Shown here one piece after another: positions 1 to 7,507 of a DNA stretch of 10,059 bases (position 1 is the first letter of the stretch; each line of letters begins with the position of its first letter). The notes below the pieces were generated by a model. That model did no database searches. It had not been told where the DNA came from and saw only the letters and a program-made list of their open reading frames with translations. This stretch comes from Halobacteriales archaeon (GTDB lineage Archaea; Halobacteriota; Halobacteria; Halobacteriales; Hikarchaeaceae), in assembly GCA_029941175.1 (NCBI GenBank), contig JAPYRM010000025.1, positions 1-10,059 of the forward strand. Reading direction: 5' to 3'. The translations under genes were made by a program, and so were the position numbers.

Positions 1-1085
1 TTGCTAGGAACTCCAATTTCAATTTCCCGATCAAACCTACCTCCTCGGCGCAAAGCCGGATCAATCGCATTAACACGATTAGTCGCCGCTATTACTACCA
101 CTTGTCCTCTTTCTTTTAACCCATCCATGAGGGTAAGCAATTGGGCAACTACTCGGCGTTCTACATCCCCACTGGCCTCTTCCCGTCGGGGGGCAATTGA
201 ATCTATCTCATCCAAGAAGACTATGGCTGGACTATTTTTTTCCGCTTCCTCGAACACTTCCCTCAACTGTCCTTCACTTTCTCCGTAATATTTTGACATT
301 ATCTCTGGCCCCGAAATAGAGATAAAATGCGCATCAATCTCGTTAGCCACTGCTTGTGCGATTAATGTTTTTCCAGTCCCTGGAGGGCCATGTAATAAAA
401 CTCCTTTGGGAGGTTCAATTCCTAGTTGCTCCCATAGTTCTGGATGTCTCATTGGGAGTTCTATCATCTCTCTAATTTGACCCAGTTGGTCTGATAGTCC
501 TCCTATATCTTCGTATGTTATGTCTGAAAGAGGCTCAACAGTTTCTCGTTTTGTATCACCCAGTTCCCTATCTATTGAAAACTTGATAACCGTCTCATCT
601 GTGACTTGTACTGGCCCTTTGGGTTTTGTTGCCGCAATAATTACTGGCACTCTCACTCCCGTGTAGAATATACTAAAATTGATAGGTATTGTTTGACCCA
701 CACTAACTGCCCTTCCTTTCAATCGGGCCCCCACCATCTGCGCGATTCCTCTATGGTCTCCTCCAATTATCTTGACATGCTTTGGAATTGTTGTACTAAC
801 ACTTTCTGCATCTTTGACTTCGATTTTTTCAATATTTACCTTTTCATCAATTCCCACATTAGCCGCATGTCTCAATCCCCCATCCATCCGAACAATTTTC
901 TGCTCTGAATCACTTGCATATCCTGGGAATACTTTCCCCACCACTGAATTTTTTGGAGACTCCGTACCTTTTATGGATACATAATCTCCTTCTTGCACAC
1001 CCAGCTCTGAGAAATCTCCCCGATCAATGAACACTAGACCTCTGCCTGCGTCTTTTTGGGGCACTTGTTTTACAATAAGTTCCAT
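1..1085 (-). CDS. cdc48: CDC48/VAT-type AAA+ ATPase, N-terminal half (cut by window edge)
   Basis: This is an ATP-driven unfoldase/segregase of the cytosol, the archaeal relative of p97/VCP; such proteins form hexamers that feed substrates to the proteasome. I translated it by hand from the ATG at 1083-1085; 361 complete codons lie in the window, about half of a usual two-ATPase-domain protein of roughly 730-750 residues. Residues 1 to about 185 form the double-psi-barrel N domain, starting [19 protein letters not shown]. The first ATPase domain follows: Walker A GPPGTGKT at 233-240, Walker B VFLDEID with D292 and E293, sensor ATNR, and the arginine-finger stretch RRGGRFDRE near the cut. The second ATPase domain must lie to the left of the window. 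An SD-like GAAGG lies 7 bases above the ATG, and a TATA-like box lies further up, so it is probably transcribed on its own. The family call is firm; only the C-terminal half is unseen. Confidence 0.95.
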
Positions 1086-1218: not shown

Positions 1219-2025
1219 TTAGTCTAGGCTTTCTGGTGGAAAATCCCCGGAAATAACTTCTTCTCGATATTTTTTAATTGCGTTTGAAATTTCTACTTTT
1301 ACATTACCAAATTTCCTAGCAAATGGGGGCACCGAATCCGAGAGGCCAATAACATCATCTACCACTAGAACTTGTCCACGTGTATGTGGACCTGCACCAA
1401 TACCTATCGTTGGAATCTCCAATTTTTGTGTGATTTTCTTGGCAATATCAGATGGCATATGTTCTAATACAATCGCAAAGGCCCCTGCATTTTCGTGCTC
1501 TATTGCCAGTTCCATTATCTTCTGTGCACTATTTTCATCCGTTCCTTGTTGATAATATCCCCCTATTTGTCGAATTCTTTGAGGTACCAGCCCAACATGT
1601 GCCATGACTGGTATCCCTATATCGACCATCTTTTTTGTAATATCAACCGTATGAGGTCCGCTTTCTATTTTCACGGCATCTGATCCCCCCATTTTCAACA
1701 TCTTACCTGCATTCATAACCGAAACCGATTCTTCCACCCCTACTGAAAGAAATGGTAAATCTGTTACAACTAGGGCTTCCTTCACCCCTCGAACAACCGC
1801 AGCTGTGTGGCTAATCATTTCTTCTATTGTAACCGGTAACGTAGTTTCATATCCTAACGCCGTATTCCCCACGCTATCCCCCACAAGAATGATGTCTATT
1901 CCGATAGAGTCTGCTATCTCGGCTATCGACTTATTATATGCAGTTAACATGGTAATCGGAGGCCCATTTCTTTCATGCGCCGCGATTTCCGGAACTGTTG
2001 GCATAATTTCACATGAGGCAGCCAT
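1219..2025 (-). CDS. panB: 3-methyl-2-oxobutanoate hydroxymethyltransferase (ketopantoate hydroxymethyltransferase)
   Basis: PanB adds a hydroxymethyl group from methylene-tetrahydrofolate (or an archaeal analogue) to 2-oxoisovalerate to give ketopantoate, the first committed step towards pantothenate and coenzyme A. The open frame runs from an ATG at 2037 (272 codons). On that numbering the metal and substrate residues known from E. coli PanB are all visible: D54 in VGDS, D93 in VTDLPF, K123 and E125 in VKIE, and E192 in LEHMP. The signature GIGAGPHTRGQVLV is also present. Start choice: a TTTTAAAA box at 2045-2052 predicts a transcript start near 2022-2025, which coincides with the ATG at 2023-2025 (M5). 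The ATG at 2002-2004, giving MPTVPEI, is closest to the usual family N-terminus, while the first ATG at 2037 is the automatic choice. The gene is divergent from the riboflavin kinase fusion. The product call is firm; the start is uncertain by up to 11 codons. Confidence 0.96.
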   Translation of the reverse strand: MAASCEIMPTVPEIAAHERNGPPITMLTAYNKSIAEIADSIGIDIILVGDSVGNTALGYETTLPVTIEEMISHTAAVVRGVKEALVVTDLPFLSVGVEESVSVMNAGKMLKMGGSDAVKIESGPHTVDITKKMVDIGIPVMAHVGLVPQRIRQIGGYYQQGTDENSAQKIMELAIEHENAGAFAIVLEHMPSDIAKKITQKLEIPTIGIGAGPHTRGQVLVVDDVIGLSDSVPPFARKFGNVKVEISNAIKKYREEVISGDFPPESLD

Positions 2026-2044
2026 CACATTAAACATGTTCGTA

Positions 2045-2110: not shown

Positions 2111-3040
2111 ATGCATGGAAAATTGGAATCCGGAAAGGGAGTTGCTAATATCTTAATTTCCGATCTCAATGAGCTCCTTTTCTCCCATTTATCTTTCCGT
2201 CCCTTCCCTGGGACGCTAAATTTAACTCAGATGGTTTCGACCATATCTCTAACTTCTACTATCGTACATGACATCGAAAATGCTTTGGATAATTGTGATG
2301 GGATAGAGTTACATCCTTGTTCTATCAGTGGAATCAAAGCGGCTCTTATTCGCCCTTTAGTCGATAACTATCCAAAATCCAAATTTGAGTTCATCGCACC
2401 CATTTCTTTACGAAAATTATTCTCTCTCAACGATGGCGATTTGGTTCATATATCTGCCACAGACAATCTATGGACTCATGAGTTAAAAGCTAGTTTAAAT
2501 TATCTTGATAAATTCGATGGAGTGATCTTTGATTTAGATGGAACTCTAACTAACCTCGACGTAGATTGGAAATCTGTTAGAACTCAAATACGTGATCTTT
2601 TCCCGTCTTCTATCGATCCATTTTCTTTTAGAGCAGATAGAAATAATCACGCTCCTATCTATGAACTAGCTCGCCAATATGGCCTTTATGAAGATCTCCT
2701 TGATCTGTTGGCTTCCCACGAACTCGACGGCACCAAAAATGCAGTCCCATTGCCCCTACTCGATGTCATTCCTAATTTAGATTGTCCAGTTGGTTTATGC
2801 ACAAAAAATTCCCATATAGCTTCTCAAGAAATCGCTGAAAAGTTCAATATCCATTTTGATTCGCTCATAACTAGAGAATCTACGTTAGAGGACAAACCCA
2901 ATCCTATCCCCCTACAAAAGTGTATTGAAGATCTTGAAATCTCCCCTGGAAATACGTTATTCATAGGAAACGAAAAAACCGATGCAGAGACTGCATATGG
3001 GGCAGGGACAAATTTTTTACAAGTTGATCAGTTTTACTAA
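2111..3040 (+). CDS. Fusion of CTP-dependent riboflavin kinase (RibK, DUF120) with a HAD-family phosphatase
   Basis: This 309-residue protein has two domains. Residues 1 to about 116 match the archaeal CTP-dependent riboflavin kinase (MJ0056 type), which makes FMN: GKLESGKGVANILI near the start, PFPGTLNL at 31-38, GIKAALIRP at 74-82 and EFIAPISLRKLFSLNDGD at 93-110. Residues from about 134 form a haloacid dehalogenase phosphatase: motif I DLDGT at 141-145 (nucleophile D141, acid/base D143), motif II T231 in LCTKNS, motif III K262 in DKPNP, and motif IV GNEKTD at 286-291. In motif IV the first acidic residue is N287, but D291 is kept. A helical cap can fit between motifs I and II. Seen: both domains are in one uninterrupted frame. 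Inferred: the HAD half may act on FMN or on the phosphorylated pyrimidine intermediate of riboflavin synthesis, whose phosphatase is poorly defined in archaea. The start fits the native N-terminus of MJ0056-like kinases and a leaderless promoter. Confidence 0.88.
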   Translation: MHGKLESGKGVANILISDLNELLFSHLSFRPFPGTLNLTQMVSTISLTSTIVHDIENALDNCDGIELHPCSISGIKAALIRPLVDNYPKSKFEFIAPISLRKLFSLNDGDLVHISATDNLWTHELKASLNYLDKFDGVIFDLDGTLTNLDVDWKSVRTQIRDLFPSSIDPFSFRADRNNHAPIYELARQYGLYEDLLDLLASHELDGTKNAVPLPLLDVIPNLDCPVGLCTKNSHIASQEIAEKFNIHFDSLITRESTLEDKPNPIPLQKCIEDLEISPGNTLFIGNEKTDAETAYGAGTNFLQVDQFY

Positions 3041-4311
3041 TCAAATCGGCGCTCTATACTTTCTGCATGGCCGTCCAATCCTTCCGATCTAGCAATTGTG
3101 GTTATGATTTTTCTAATTTTTTCCAACGCTGTTTTATCAAGTCTTTGTATCGTAGAAACTTTGGTGAATGTATCCACCGAAACTCCTCCTGTAACGCGAG
3201 AACCCTGATTTGTAGGTAATATATGATTAGTCCCTGATGCATAATCTCCTGCAGCAACTGGGGTGTCCCTCCCTACAAATATACTTCCTGCACTACTGAT
3301 TTTTTCTAAAAGCATCTTTTCGTTCTCCTCCGAAGTTTGAATGGAGAGATGCTCTGAAGCATATTCTTCTGCAAATTCTGCCGCGATCTCCATGCTTTTT
3401 ACCAAAATAATTCCGCTATATGCGTTATCTAGAGTTTGATTTATTATATCCCTTCTACCTAATAATTCAGTTTGCACTTTCACCTCTTCTACAATTCCTT
3501 TTGATAGTTCTTCGCTATCTGTTACCACCAACGCAGCAACATTCCCATCGTGTTCAGCTTGTGCAATCAAATCGGCTGCAACAATTCTCGGATCTGCAGT
3601 TAAATCTGCAATAATCAAAATTTCACTTATACCTGCAATAAACTCTATTTCCACATCATTTCTGATTTCTTTCTTGGCCACGGCAACCCATTGGTTTCCT
3701 GGCCCTATGATTTTGTCAACCGGGTCAATTGTTTGCGTGCCGTATGCAAGTGCAGCAATCCCCTGTGCCCCTCCTGCAGCATAGATCTTATCCGCACCTG
3801 AAATATATGCTGCAGCCAGTGTAACCTGATTCAATTTTTCTGCTGGAGGTGTCACAACGGCGATGTGCCCCACACCCGCAACTTTTGCTGGAATTATGGC
3901 CATCAACACACTAGATGGGTACGCGGCCGTACCTCCCGGAACGTATACTCCAATTTTATTTATCGGCCGAAACCTTTGTCCCATTTCCCTACCATCAAAA
4001 TTCCCAACCCAATCTTCTCTAACTTGGCGTTTGTGAAATACCTCAATGTTTTCCGCCGCTTTTTTTATGGCTAATTTTAACTCTTCATCAATTGCTTCAT
4101 ATGCTTTTTTCGCTTCTTGCGTGATGTCTATTTCTTTTACTTCTATTTTATCAAATTCTAATGCATATCTCCTAAGTGCATCATCTCCTTGCTCTCTTAC
4201 ATTATCAATAATAGTCCGAACCGTTTTCTGTATTTCTTGACTCACTTGATACCGCTTGAATACAACTTCACGCTGGTCCTCCTCCATATTTTCGAGGTAC
4301 CGCATTTCCAT
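3037..4311 (-). CDS. hisD: Histidinol dehydrogenase
   Basis: HisD oxidises L-histidinol to L-histidine in two NAD-dependent steps, the last reactions of histidine synthesis; it is a zinc enzyme. Numbering from the longest frame (TTG at 4387-4389, 450 codons), the zinc ligands Q277 and H280 (AQAEH), D382 (GDYASGTNHILPT) and H441 (GHAES) and the catalytic pair E346-H347 (ASEHL) are all present, as is GPGNQWVAVAK at 229-239. The common AGPSE motif reads AGISE here. Start choice: the longest frame begins with a rare TTG, and the TATA box at 4398-4405 predicts transcription from about 4375, downstream of that TTG. The ATG at 4309-4311 (M27) then gives 424 residues, the usual family length, so I use it; 4389 is the automatic alternative. 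Its stop codon overlaps that of the riboflavin kinase fusion by 4 bases. No other his gene is nearby. Confidence 0.95.
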   Translation of the reverse strand: MEMRYLENMEEDQREVVFKRYQVSQEIQKTVRTIIDNVREQGDDALRRYALEFDKIEVKEIDITQEAKKAYEAIDEELKLAIKKAAENIEVFHKRQVREDWVGNFDGREMGQRFRPINKIGVYVPGGTAAYPSSVLMAIIPAKVAGVGHIAVVTPPAEKLNQVTLAAAYISGADKIYAAGGAQGIAALAYGTQTIDPVDKIIGPGNQWVAVAKKEIRNDVEIEFIAGISEILIIADLTADPRIVAADLIAQAEHDGNVAALVVTDSEELSKGIVEEVKVQTELLGRRDIINQTLDNAYSGIILVKSMEIAAEFAEEYASEHLSIQTSEENEKMLLEKISSAGSIFVGRDTPVAAGDYASGTNHILPTNQGSRVTGGVSVDTFTKVSTIQRLDKTALEKIRKIITTIARSEGLDGHAESIERRFD

Positions 4312-4397
4312 ATCTGTTCTTGGATCTCTATGTGAAAAACCATTTCTACATTCTAATCCCTCCAAGAACCTCTCCGTATCCGAATCCAATTTTCTTT

Positions 4398-4654: not shown

Positions 4655-5707
4655 ATGGTAATTTTCCTCTCCGAGTCCGAGGTTGAACAATGTTTAGACA
4701 TGAGGTCTTCCATCGAAGCGTTAGAACTAGCATATAAGGCAGACGCCGCTGGAAGGGTTGTTAGCATCCCCCGGTCTGATATGATACTCCCGCTCGGACC
4801 AAACGATGCTTATGTTTACAAAATCATGTCTGGGATTATACAGGATTTCGGCGTATCTGCCCTCCGAATCCAATCTGATAGAATCCGCTGGGAAGGGGGT
4901 CGAAAATTCAAGATAGGAATGGCTAGAGACAAAAAATATGTAGAATATGTCCAATTATACGATATCAAAACAAACGAACCGCTATTGATAATTCCCGATG
5001 GATACGCTAGTAAAATGCGTGTTGGGGCCACAAATGCCCTTGGAGCTAAATACATGGTATCTTCTTCTGATGTACACACAATGGGTTTACTCGGCGCAGG
5101 TCGACACGCTGGTGGACAAATCGAGGCCTTCGCTGAGATGTTCAATCTCGAGCAAGTGAATGTATATAGCCCCACTCCTAAAAATCGTGAAGCCTTCGCG
5201 AAAGAATGGAACGATAAATTGGACCCCCTTGTTGTCCCTGTAGACGAACCTACCAAAGCAATATCTGGAACTAATATTCTCGCATGTGCTTCCAATGCAA
5301 TGAAGCCTATCTTCGATGCATCTTGGATAGAGCCTGAAATGCATGTAAGTGCAATCAAAAATCCCGAAATTCCAGGCGAGGCATTTTCCAAAGTAGATCG
5401 TGTAGCAGTTGCGACAACACAACTTCCATCTGGTCCCCATAACTATGCCCCCCGGTCTTCGGATTTTGCTCAAAATCTCACTGATAAATGGGCCATTTCA
5501 AATTTCGACATAAGTGCTGCTCAGGATATTTCTTCTCTTATTTCTGAAAATAGGGACCCAATATCTGAAGAAACTACTCTTTTCCTCAACAACACCGGAA
5601 TTGGTATGCAATTCGCAGCTGTCGGAAAAGTAGCGTACGATCACGCAATTGAAAACGGACTTGGAACTGAAGTAGACACTAATCTATTCTTACAATCTGT
5701 CTGGTAA
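4655..5707 (+). CDS. Ornithine cyclodeaminase/mu-crystallin family protein, substrate unknown
   Basis: This 350-residue NAD(P)-dependent protein belongs to the family of ornithine cyclodeaminase, archaeal alanine dehydrogenase, ketimine reductase and SbnB-type enzymes, cytosolic dimers acting on amino acids or cyclic imines. Family marks are the N-terminus VIFLSESEVEQCLDM, GRVVSIPRSDM at 33-43, R122 in MRVGATNALGAKYM, the Rossmann loop GLLGAGRHAGGQ at 144-155, and the C-terminal GIGMQFAAVGKVAYDHAIENG at 315-335. The segment that in ornithine cyclodeaminase reads roughly G-x-D-x-P-G-K and carries the catalytic Asp is SAIKNPEIPGEAF here (232-244), with no Asp in the expected place, so an ornithine cyclodeaminase function should not be assumed. 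It ends 81 bases before a diiron protein gene on the same strand. The start fits the family N-terminus. The family is firm, the reaction unknown. Confidence 0.88.
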   Translation: MVIFLSESEVEQCLDMRSSIEALELAYKADAAGRVVSIPRSDMILPLGPNDAYVYKIMSGIIQDFGVSALRIQSDRIRWEGGRKFKIGMARDKKYVEYVQLYDIKTNEPLLIIPDGYASKMRVGATNALGAKYMVSSSDVHTMGLLGAGRHAGGQIEAFAEMFNLEQVNVYSPTPKNREAFAKEWNDKLDPLVVPVDEPTKAISGTNILACASNAMKPIFDASWIEPEMHVSAIKNPEIPGEAFSKVDRVAVATTQLPSGPHNYAPRSSDFAQNLTDKWAISNFDISAAQDISSLISENRDPISEETTLFLNNTGIGMQFAAVGKVAYDHAIENGLGTEVDTNLFLQSVW

Positions 5708-5788: not shown

Positions 5789-6466
5789 ATGTCATCCGAC
5801 TTATCTACTGTGGCGACATTAGTGAACGACTTCACAGAAGAATACCGCATAAAAATGGAAACTGCAGTTGAGAAGTACTTCACAGATGAATACTTCGATT
5901 CATTGGGGGGTCCACTCGCAATGATGCAAAAACAGTTTGCATCTCAAGCTTGGAGGGAGTTCTATATCGGTTGTTTGCCCCCTGCAAGACAAATGACTCA
6001 GATATATGAGATAGGGGACCCTTATTTTCGTGATAGAGATCTAATCGTTGGACTAGGTGAACAAATCCGAGACGAAGTAAAACACGCAAAAATTTACGCA
6101 AGTCTATCTGAACAAGTTGGAGTACCCTGCGATTTGGCAATTTGGACTGACGATAATTATGATAAATTGGTTACCAAATGTCGCTTGGCAACTGAGTGGG
6201 AAAAACCACACCATATCGCAGCAGGCTTCCAAATTTCAACTGAAATCGTTGCAGCAGAAACTTCTCGTAGAATGGGCGAATATGTTGAAGGTGAATACCC
6301 TGAAATAGCCAAAACACTTTTCGACGTAACCGCTGATGAGGGAGATCATATCCATTGCGGCCGTTTGATAGTAAAAAGATTCGCAGAAGTGGAAGATTTT
6401 GACTTCATGCATGAAATTGCAGAGAGGAAATACAAAGCAGCATTGGCAATTCTTGAGTCTCTCTGA
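5789..6466 (+). CDS. Ferritin-like diiron protein, probable oxidase/oxygenase of unknown substrate
   Basis: The protein has 225 residues, is largely helical, and has no signal peptide or membrane segment. It shows the residue pattern of a ferritin-like four-helix bundle with a carboxylate-bridged di-iron site: E57 (AWREFY), E96 and H99 (DEVKHAK), E152 (ISTEIVAAE; E157 is the alternative) and E184 and H187 (ADEGDHIH). The spacing of 39, 56 and 32 residues fits two pairs of helices. This superfamily holds ferritins, rubrerythrins, MiaE-type tRNA hydroxylases, PaaA/PaaC-like proteins and aurF-like N-oxygenases; I cannot assign it to one of them. A length of 225 is longer than a simple ferritin and shorter than a monooxygenase large subunit. 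The next gene starts 2 bases after its stop, so the two are probably translated together. The diiron fold is well supported, its reaction is not. Confidence 0.78.
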   Translation: MSSDLSTVATLVNDFTEEYRIKMETAVEKYFTDEYFDSLGGPLAMMQKQFASQAWREFYIGCLPPARQMTQIYEIGDPYFRDRDLIVGLGEQIRDEVKHAKIYASLSEQVGVPCDLAIWTDDNYDKLVTKCRLATEWEKPHHIAAGFQISTEIVAAETSRRMGEYVEGEYPEIAKTLFDVTADEGDHIHCGRLIVKRFAEVEDFDFMHEIAERKYKAALAILESL

Positions 6467-6468
6467 CT

Positions 6469-6708
6469 ATGACACGACGAATTCTAAAATTAACGCCAGA
6501 AACTAAAGTACAGTTCTCCGAACCTGCAGAGATACAAGATATCCATCTCCATGATTTATCTTTTGTGGCTGGAATCGAAACCGAAGGTGATCTTATTACT
6601 TCTTGCACTCTCGACGTGTCTCAGTTAATACAATCAATGACCCTCTATTCTGCCATGGAAAAAAAGCGAGAGAGTTGGCGCCGTGTAAAATCTTCTAAAG
6701 ATAGGTAA
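6469..6708 (+). CDS. Small protein of unknown function, coupled to the diiron protein gene
   Basis: This is a frame of 79 residues that I do not recognise. It starts at an ATG only 2 bases after the TGA of the ferritin-like gene, which suggests translational coupling and is the main reason to accept it as real. The first half alternates charged and hydrophobic residues as in a small beta-rich domain (MTRRILKLTPETKVQFSEPA). The last 25 residues are helical and strongly basic (EKKRESWRRVKSSKDR). There are no cysteine pairs, membrane segments or signal peptide; two His lie in DIHLHD at 24-29. It could be a partner or substrate carrier of the diiron protein, but nothing in the sequence proves that. 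Confidence 0.6.
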   Translation: MTRRILKLTPETKVQFSEPAEIQDIHLHDLSFVAGIETEGDLITSCTLDVSQLIQSMTLYSAMEKKRESWRRVKSSKDR

Positions 6709-6742
6709 ACTTTAAAACCATCAACTCGTTTTATCTGTTCAA

Positions 6743-6747
6743 TTTTT
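6743..6747 (+). terminator. T-run terminator candidate in a convergent gap
   Basis: Five T lie 35 bases after the stop of the small gene, inside the 55-base T-rich gap before the convergent dehydrogenase gene. It would end the plus-strand transcript. Confidence 0.3.
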
Positions 6748-6763
6748 CTATCTAACTTTTAAC

Positions 6764-7507
6764 TCAATAGAATACGTTCCCGCCATCTACATTTACTACC
6801 TGCCCTGTCATCATCCCACTTTCATGACTCAATAAAAATCCAATAACATTTGCAACATCTTCTGGCTGAATCGCCCTCTTGATAATTTGACTTGCTTCTG
6901 CCCGTTGTTGTATTCGATCTTCTCCCGCTTGCAGTGATGCCGGAGATGCGGTTAAACCTGGCATTATGGCATTTACTCTTATCTTTTTATCTGCTAGTTC
7001 TTTTGCCATACTCCTAGTCATCCCCACAACTGCAGCTTTTGACGCTATATAGTGAAAAAATCCTGGAGTTCCTTTCATAATAGTCCCCGAAGATATATTT
7101 ACAATACGCGCACCCTCATTGAATGATGGAACAGCTTCTTTTGTGGCAATAAATACACCAGTGGTATTGACGGACATTACTTTCTCAAACTCTTCCACTG
7201 TAATCTCTGTGAATGGTTTGAGATTCCCTGGAATCATTAGTGGCGCAAAGTAAGCCGCATTATTGACCAACCCATCTATTTTAGTATCTTTAAACACAGC
7301 ACGCATGGACTCTTCACTTGTCACATCACCCTTACGAAACTCTGCGCTTCCACCCGCATCTTCTATTTCCTTAACAGCATCCGACCCATCTTGAATGTCT
7401 GTTATCAGCACATGCGCCCCCTTCGCAGCCACATTTTTTGCAATTGCCAATCCGATTCCTTGCGAACCACCTGTTACTACTATAGTTTCTCCAGCTAAAC
7501 TTTTCAT
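6764..7507 (-). CDS. Short-chain dehydrogenase/reductase (SDR), NAD-preferring, substrate unknown
   Basis: This classical SDR of 247 residues is a full-length, soluble NAD(P)-dependent alcohol/ketone oxidoreductase. Visible motifs are TGGSQGIG at 12-19 (cofactor loop), D37 at the end of the second strand (LITDIQ, an acidic residue that favours NAD over NADP), NNAA at 82-85, N114 (SVNTTG), S139/S140 (NISSG), and Y153 with K157 (HYIASK). The C-terminus GQVVNVDGGNVFY is the usual SDR ending. The tetrad N-S-Y-K is complete, so the enzyme should be active. A TTTAT box about 28 bases above its ATG suggests it has its own leaderless promoter although it follows taw2 by only 55 bases. It is convergent with the diiron/small-protein pair; a shared pathway is possible but unproven. 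Substrate cannot be read from the sequence. Confidence 0.92.
   Translation of the reverse strand: MKSLAGETIVVTGGSQGIGLAIAKNVAAKGAHVLITDIQDGSDAVKEIEDAGGSAEFRKGDVTSEESMRAVFKDTKIDGLVNNAAYFAPLMIPGNLKPFTEITVEEFEKVMSVNTTGVFIATKEAVPSFNEGARIVNISSGTIMKGTPGFFHYIASKAAVVGMTRSMAKELADKKIRVNAIMPGLTASPASLQAGEDRIQQRAEASQIIKRAIQPEDVANVIGFLLSHESGMMTGQVVNVDGGNVFY

Follow-up and report, generated by a model that had tools for sequence, protein, structure and literature searches.

A DUF120–HAD fusion protein from a haloarchaeal genus belongs to a cysteine-type DUF120 subfamily that is associated with UbiX and UbiD genes

In Arabidopsis, the protein AtFMN/FHy joins a riboflavin kinase to a HAD phosphatase. Its kinase is of an unrelated, ATP-dependent type and its domain order is the other one, whereas the kinase half of the protein described here belongs to PF01982 (DUF120). 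Two archaeal proteins share this domain but have no C-terminal HAD phosphatase. MJ0056, the CTP-dependent riboflavin kinase of Methanocaldococcus jannaschii (2vbu, 2p3m), is a chain of 136 amino acids. RbkR, found in haloarchaea and other archaea, presumably begins with a wHTH domain, and by its coordinates it adjoins RibB in many haloarchaea. It is described as a bifunctional regulator and enzyme (PMC8305020). The accessible part of a survey of fusions names riboflavin among the pathways that have them and describes no DUF120–HAD fusion (PMC11237513). Known proteins with a role like the one we propose below are small, and their genes accompany UbiX, either alone or together with UbiD: LpdD, whose gene stands with that of a UbiX homolog, is a prFMNH2-binding chaperone (PMC10865409), and PhdC is a prenylated-FMN (prFMN) maturase (PMC13040415). 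Their folds, described as Pba3/4-like and HpaC-like, differ from that of DUF120. In the available text, the former paper does not contain the string 'DUF' and the latter contains neither 'DUF120' nor 'riboflavin kinase'. UbiD operons hold further genes, many of unknown function; some UbiD enzymes resist activation in vitro, and many occur in obligate anaerobes, where an O2-free oxidation would be needed (PMC10865409). Our searches of the open-access literature returned nothing relevant on riboflavin kinase with UbiX and UbiD, no paper that links DUF120 to UbiX or UbiD (that exact word pair was not queried) and, judged by title and start of abstract, none about the DUF120 domain under its own name.

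The stretch of DNA analysed here (10,059 nucleotides, referred to as the window) comes from a Halobacteriales archaeon and encodes a genuine two-domain protein, a DUF120 domain followed by a C1-capped HAD phosphatase (Table 1). The sequence-only reading had recognised RibK/DUF120 and HAD domains joined in one uninterrupted frame, and this is borne out. The frame has no internal stop codon. Pfam places DUF120 (PF01982) at residues 19–115, where 57.4 bits compare with a gathering cut-off of 25, and HAD_2 (PF13419) at residues 138–304, with 55.4 bits against 23.8. The motifs that had been named (PFPGTLNL, FIAPISLRKLF, DLDGT, K262 and D291) are all present in the translation. Both domains also occur together in 19 protein clusters (P0002–P0020) of 307–328 amino acids, with 98–100% of the query covered, and the identical fusion in the identical gene order was seen in all four genomes found of the window's genus. 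As the fusion recurs in this way, it is not a reading error that joined two separate genes near 2470–2510, which had been considered as a possible refutation; the uninterrupted frame and a confident single AlphaFold2 model with two domains (pLDDT 92.5, pTM 0.91) agree with this. Foldseek matched the DUF120 half to MJ0056 with CDP (28% identity), and the C-terminal half has the C1-capped HAD fold.

Table 1. Coordinates of the features in the window, with the evidence for each.
Feature	Position	Strand	Evidence
Part of presumed Cdc48/VAT-like AAA ATPase, syntenic anchor	1..1085	-	homology cluster common to haloarchaeal neighbours
PanB, ketopantoate hydroxymethyltransferase	1219..2037	-	PF02548; synteny, conserved cdc48–panB neighbourhood
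CDS, DUF120–HAD fusion, 309 aa	2111..3040	+	single frame from ATG to stop; full-length homologs
DUF120 half, Cys-type, residues 1–119	2111..2467	+	PF01982, 57.4 bits; Foldseek 2vbu, TMt 0.72
Codons T35-L36-N37 of PxGTLN	2213..2221	+	Thr and Asn invariant in all groups aligned
C62 codon, invariant Cys replacing Gly	2294..2296	+	Cys in 24/24 archaeal and 17/17 sampled bacterial fusions
E93 codon	2387..2389	+	Glu present in every DUF120 compared
HAD phosphatase half, C1 cap, residues 136–304	2516..3022	+	
HAD motif I, D141 and D143	2531..2539	+	invariant in 24 archaeal fusions and 27 stand-alone haloarchaeal HADs
HAD motif III, K262	2894..2896	+	invariant in 24 archaeal fusions and 27 stand-alone haloarchaeal HADs
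HAD motif IV, N287...D291, first acid Asn	2969..2983	+	D291 invariant; Asn in 6/24 archaeal fusions
HisD, histidinol dehydrogenase	3037..4389	-	PF00815; convergent, 4 nt overlap with the fusion

The source genome (930 kb in 149 contigs, 78% complete) contains three DUF120 genes: a separate Gly-type RibK (143 amino acids, 121 bits), the window fusion, and a second fusion that lies on a different contig and begins 2 nt after a RibB gene. The window-type fusion lies between panB and hisD, near a gene that we take from its sequence to encode a Cdc48/VAT-like AAA ATPase, in the four genomes found of the genus. Three of these also carry the second fusion, with RibB 2–10 nt upstream, and it was not seen in the fourth (G196, 58% complete). 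In each of the three, the RibB gene directly before this paralog is the only one found. A CoxD/MadB-like ATPase gene lies downstream of the paralog; the two loci that reach further also contain an SDR gene and a CoxE-like gene, and in one locus (L149) a molybdenum (Mo)-hydroxylase large subunit is encoded 4.3 kb away. RibH was not found in the incomplete source genome and was found in its three siblings. As the CTP/Mg residues described below are kept and the paralog directly follows RibB, a link to flavins is likely. None of the neighbours of the window gene itself (the Cdc48-like gene, panB and hisD) is a UbiX, UbiD or riboflavin gene. A profile search found no UbiX or UbiD in the sibling window-type loci L146 and L148, and UbiX was not seen in the loci taken from the window's genus. 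Further along the window, 4655–5707 (+) encodes a member of the ornithine cyclodeaminase/mu-crystallin family; judged by eye, UbiD genes at other places in this genome have similar genes close by (L237, L242). The 225-amino-acid protein encoded at 5789–6463 (+), which is ferritin-like by eye, is conserved in the genus and matched no Pfam family.

To compare the kinase half with known DUF120 domains, we aligned 24 archaeal fusions, a cluster sample of 17 bacterial fusions, 23 haloarchaeal RbkR sequences (from 30 loci, of which seven gave partial hits that were dropped) and the genome's own RibK. The GTxN motif and the Glu are invariant across all groups, and the second loop Gly is retained in 23 of the 24 archaeal fusions. 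We take the loop Gly, GTxN and Glu to be the nucleotide/Mg signature of RibK, and the TLN of PxGTLN to be its Mg/CTP part. The R-T-[YF]-G motif has become x-x-x-Cys in every archaeal and bacterial fusion aligned, whereas the position equivalent to C62 is Gly in all 23 RbkR sequences and in the genome's own RibK. The Thr before the Glu, found in 22 of the 23 RbkR sequences (Ser in the remaining one), is lost in both fusion groups, and a His/Tyr has changed to Ala in 20/24 archaeal and 17/17 bacterial fusions. The window protein therefore has neither the R-T-[YF]-G motif nor the Thr/Ser before Glu of the Gly-type RibK. MJ0056, which shares the fold, GTLN and Glu with this half, differs in having Gly at the Cys position and in keeping its KT motif. 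Judged by these residues, the kinase half appears to keep its nucleotide/metal site while another conserved part has changed. Judging from conservation, the changed part is probably the flavin-binding side of the pocket, and the label 'riboflavin kinase' is doubtful for this half.

The division into Cys and Gly types extends beyond the fusions. In the phylum of the Syntrophaceae record L088, which we take to be Desulfobacterota, all 29 DUF120 matches in 27 genomes have Cys, whether fused or unfused. The class of the Hahella record L037 is presumably Gammaproteobacteria; of the copies in this class, all five that cover the site have Cys, a sixth is partial and a seventh scored below the cut-off. 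A further 70 archaeal sequences were compared, from 30 haloarchaeal loci, 29 members of the phylum at large, seven other archaea and four chosen extra copies. Gly together with Thr/Ser occurs in 67 of them, and the three exceptions, two with Cys and one with Leu, are second copies in genomes that have another DUF120 gene. The copy with Leu (L298, at 6605–7009 of G218 C3) has no UbiX or UbiD neighbours. Four neighbours of a locus in a bacterial bin (L205, G399 C109), which holds one of the 29 Cys-type matches above, resemble those of L298, so that L205 may be a misbinned archaeal contig or a transferred block. In a DUF120 tree of 95 rows and 133 columns, few columns for that many rows, the 23 Gly-type rows fall on one side of a branch with support of 98/89, and the Cys/Gly state requires a single change. 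A long stem, of 1.5 changes per column, leads to the archaeal fusions. In many bacterial Cys-type domains the second nucleotide-loop Gly is missing, which makes kinase activity doubtful in them. The NCBIfam model ribK_Meth (cut-off 168 bits) gave 44.2 bits for the fusion protein, 87.8 for an archaeal Cys-type protein (L294) and 87.6 for the genome's own Gly-type RibK; as the latter also scores below the cut-off, this cut-off does not discriminate between the two types.

In the HAD half, motifs I–III are complete (D141, D143 and T145 in motif I, T231 in II, K262 in III) and D291 of motif IV is kept. At the first acid of the GDxxxD motif IV, the window protein has N287, where 18 of the 24 archaeal fusions have Asp; the four window-type genes of the genus all share this Asn and are among the six fusions that have it. 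Judged from the motif, the Asn might reduce phosphatase activity. A tree of the HAD halves unites the archaeal fusions with the stand-alone haloarchaeal HADs in a single clade (SH-aLRT 99) and places the bacterial fusions elsewhere; its deep forks are weak, and 10 of the 17 bacterial rows filled less than half of the columns. The HAD half is thus most closely related to a stand-alone protein without DUF120, whose gene sits in the same cdc48/panB neighbourhood in several haloarchaeal relatives. The relatives that carry it are probably haloarchaea; the record L035 from Halobaculum litoreum groups with their HADs. We infer that the fusion arose at the cdc48/panB locus when a HAD gene gained a DUF120 domain, and that it was copied later.

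The pairing is not an archaeal peculiarity. Mapping of the lineages that carry it, which the sequence-only reading had proposed, found the fusion in the window's genus, in one other haloarchaeon (G125) and in many bacterial clusters among the best 120 matches listed. Those bacterial fusions, of Desulfobacula and others, share the pairing, the domain order and the Cys type with the window protein, but their HAD half branches elsewhere in the HAD tree. In three gammaproteobacterial fusions the order is reversed, with the HAD first. A unique archaeal invention is thereby ruled out. A single origin of the archaeal and bacterial fusions is not supported either: as their HAD halves lie in different parts of the tree, weak as its deep forks are, the bacterial fusion is probably independent. 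The bacterial proteins are annotated as 'DUF120 domain-containing protein', 'HAD-IA family hydrolase' or 'phosphoglycolate phosphatase'.

No genomic association of the Cys-type subfamily is stronger than that with UbiX and UbiD, and so with prenylated FMN, a link that was absent from the sequence-only reading. We examined 34 bacterial loci, made up of 28 loci that hold all 29 matches from the phylum of the Syntrophaceae record and six of the seven matches from the Hahella class. Profile searches found UbiX in 15 and UbiD in 18 of them, with at least one of the two in 20 and neither in 14. IDI-2-like genes were present in four loci and Mo-hydroxylase large subunits in two. UbiX, UbiD, IDI-2 and Mo-hydroxylase were found in none of 80 HAD-centred control loci, a rough control drawn from other taxa by a scan of genome contigs that returned HAD matches and no full-length fusion. 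Pfam searches of examples confirmed UbiD, the UbiX-type flavoprotein and a phenylphosphate carboxylase gamma subunit, and NCBIfam confirmed UbiX and IPP_isom_2, the latter a type 2 IPP isomerase in both loci tested (L218 and L259). The association is stronger in unfused copies (UbiX in 14/19, UbiD in 13/19) than in fused ones (1/15 and 5/15), where fusion was judged by frame length and HAD match and is uncertain for L219, near a contig end. In twelve unfused copies, UbiX lies within 12 bp of the open frame. One reverse-order gammaproteobacterial fusion (L251) has a UbiD gene 23 bp away, and one bacterial locus (L259) encodes UbiD, HAD, DUF120–HAD, UbiX, DUF120 and IDI-2 on a single strand. Among 297 genomes of the phylum of the Syntrophaceae record, at least two UbiD matches were found in 26 of the 27 with DUF120 versus 51 of the 270 without it (Fisher p 3e-16, a value that ignores kinship; matches were counted up to 10 per genome).

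UbiD matches were also counted in archaea. Over 59 genomes of the window's order, the four genomes of the window's genus have 6, 5, 8 and 7 UbiD matches, some of them contig-end pieces, and G125, the sole other haloarchaeon with a fusion, has three. The remaining 54 relatives have 0–2, with any at all in 18. As only two lineages carry it, this correlation is no more than suggestive. On one 404 kb contig of G125, which also has a stand-alone HAD, the fusion (301 kb), a xanthine-dehydrogenase-type Mo-hydroxylase (310–314 kb), UbiX (316 kb) and two UbiD genes (329–332 kb) span about 31 kb. Two other archaea have unfused Cys-type copies in such surroundings. G1082 (L294) has a split form, in which a HAD gene is followed 20 nt later by a Cys-type DUF120 gene beside three UbiD genes, and G1102 (L295) has UbiX, a Cys-type DUF120 gene and UbiD in a row.

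Other genes recur in these neighbourhoods. The genomes of the window's genus (G000, G194, G195 and G196) have their 5–8 UbiD matches despite being fragmentary and about 1 Mb in size, and some of these UbiD genes adjoin ornithine-cyclodeaminase-like genes (L237, by eye) or Mo-hydroxylase subunits (L241). CoxD/MadB-type ATPase genes lie near Cys-type DUF120 in the archaeal paralog loci L144, L149 and L150 and in the bacterial loci L218 and L221, CoxE-type VWA genes in L144, L149, L218 and L221, and XDH-type Mo-hydroxylase genes in L217, L222, L149 and G125. A protein of about 190 amino acids recurs near the DUF120/UbiD loci L206, L210, L212 and L221; the one tested had no Pfam match.

We consider it about an even chance (a probability of roughly 0.5) that the fusion acts as an accessory in supplying flavin to the prenylated-FMN system and is not the general riboflavin kinase of the cell. 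In that system, UbiX makes prFMN and UbiD decarboxylases use it. The DUF120 half, with the nucleotide/metal site of a riboflavin kinase retained and another part of its pocket remodelled around an invariant Cys, would bind or phosphorylate FMN, prFMN or a precursor for hand-over to UbiX or UbiD. The HAD half would strip the phosphate from a phosphorylated precursor, which may be a flavin phosphate or dimethylallyl (di)phosphate. Any one pair of substrates for the fusion protein is doubtful at best. The computations establish the fusion itself, the division into Cys and Gly types and the genomic association of the subfamily with UbiX, UbiD, IDI-2 and, for one paralog, RibB; the substrates, the direction of flux and a role of the window copy like that of its relatives are inferred. 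Several observations speak against the link to prFMN. The linkage to UbiX/UbiD exists at the level of the subfamily and not at that of the window gene, whose place matches that of the stand-alone haloarchaeal HAD, also found in genomes without UbiD. Fused bacterial loci show UbiX and UbiD less often than unfused ones, and 14 of the 34 loci have neither. Further points against it are the two-lineage basis of the archaeal UbiD correlation, the lack of UbiX or UbiD next to L298, the failure to see UbiX in the loci from the window's genus, the loop Gly missing from many bacterial copies and the Asn in motif IV. Slightly more tentatively, the Cys-type DUF120 proteins as a whole may form an unrecognised family of UbiX/UbiD helpers in bacteria and archaea, with a riboflavin-kinase fold, that feeds, carries or matures prFMN, perhaps by means of the invariant Cys. 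Such a family would apparently have been paired with HAD at least three times and in both orders, and the window protein would be its archaeal fused form.

The sequence-only reading had taken the protein to be a riboflavin kinase with a phosphatase for FMN or ARPP. As a bifunctional enzyme of this kind, its DUF120 half would convert riboflavin to FMN with CTP, and its HAD half would dephosphorylate FMN or a pyrimidine precursor. Part of this stands: the CTP/Mg signature is kept, including the second loop Gly in nearly all archaeal fusions, and the paralog directly follows the only RibB found in three genomes (no riboflavin gene adjoins the window copy). Roughly 30% of HAD phosphatases are able to remove the phosphate of FMN (PMC12051542), and EC 3.1.3.104, the ARPP phosphatase activity, is described as a pathway gap in Haloferax volcanii (PMC8305020). 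Against it, the conserved residues of the Gly-type RibK are lost, the Cys that replaces them is invariant, and the genome has a separate Gly-type RibK. The distribution of the HAD half argues against it as well. Of the 59 relatives, 57 gave a match for RibH, 56 for RibB and 58 for HisD, whereas close relatives of the HAD half, as set by a score gap in the search of these genomes, are missing from 13. Eight of the 13 are at least 88% complete (G001, G007, G020, G036, G037, G199, G204 and G207). That these eight keep RibB, RibH and HisD argues against the HAD family as an obligatory phosphatase for ARPP or histidinol phosphate, and presence and absence over the 59 genomes do not support such a role for the order. 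The bifunctional reading is thus possible but unlikely, and it is no longer the best supported.

The fusion could instead supply DMAP to UbiX, which uses this compound (PMC7662398). The HAD half would trim DMAPP to DMAP or to prenol, and the DUF120 half would phosphorylate prenol to DMAP with CTP. The type 2 IPP isomerase, a source of DMAPP, in four of the 34 bacterial loci (confirmed in L218 and L259) fits this idea, as does the single-strand array of L259. We nevertheless find it quite unlikely. The RibB neighbour of the paralog would be unexplained, the nucleotide-loop Gly is lost in many bacterial copies, and 14 of the 15 copies linked to UbiX are unfused. In addition, we know of no prenol kinase of the DUF120 fold. 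It is very unlikely that the protein is a histidinol-phosphate phosphatase with a regulatory CTP-binding domain that fills the gap for this enzyme beside HisD: HisD converges on it with a 4 nt overlap in the four genomes found of the genus, and the HAD protein HVO_0431 is a candidate for this activity in Haloferax (PMC8305020), but genes that overlap convergently need not be co-transcribed, the paralog adjoins RibB and not his genes, and the eight genomes without HAD-half relatives stand against a HisD present in 58 of the 59 relatives.

If the Cys-type DUF120 proteins do serve UbiX and UbiD, annotations such as 'DUF120 protein' and 'phosphoglycolate phosphatase' would conceal parts of the synthesis or maturation of prenylated FMN, and a kinase fold would have been reused beside an enzyme that consumes its former product. 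As prenylated FMN is the cofactor of the UbiD decarboxylases, a new family of helpers could be tested directly by co-expression.
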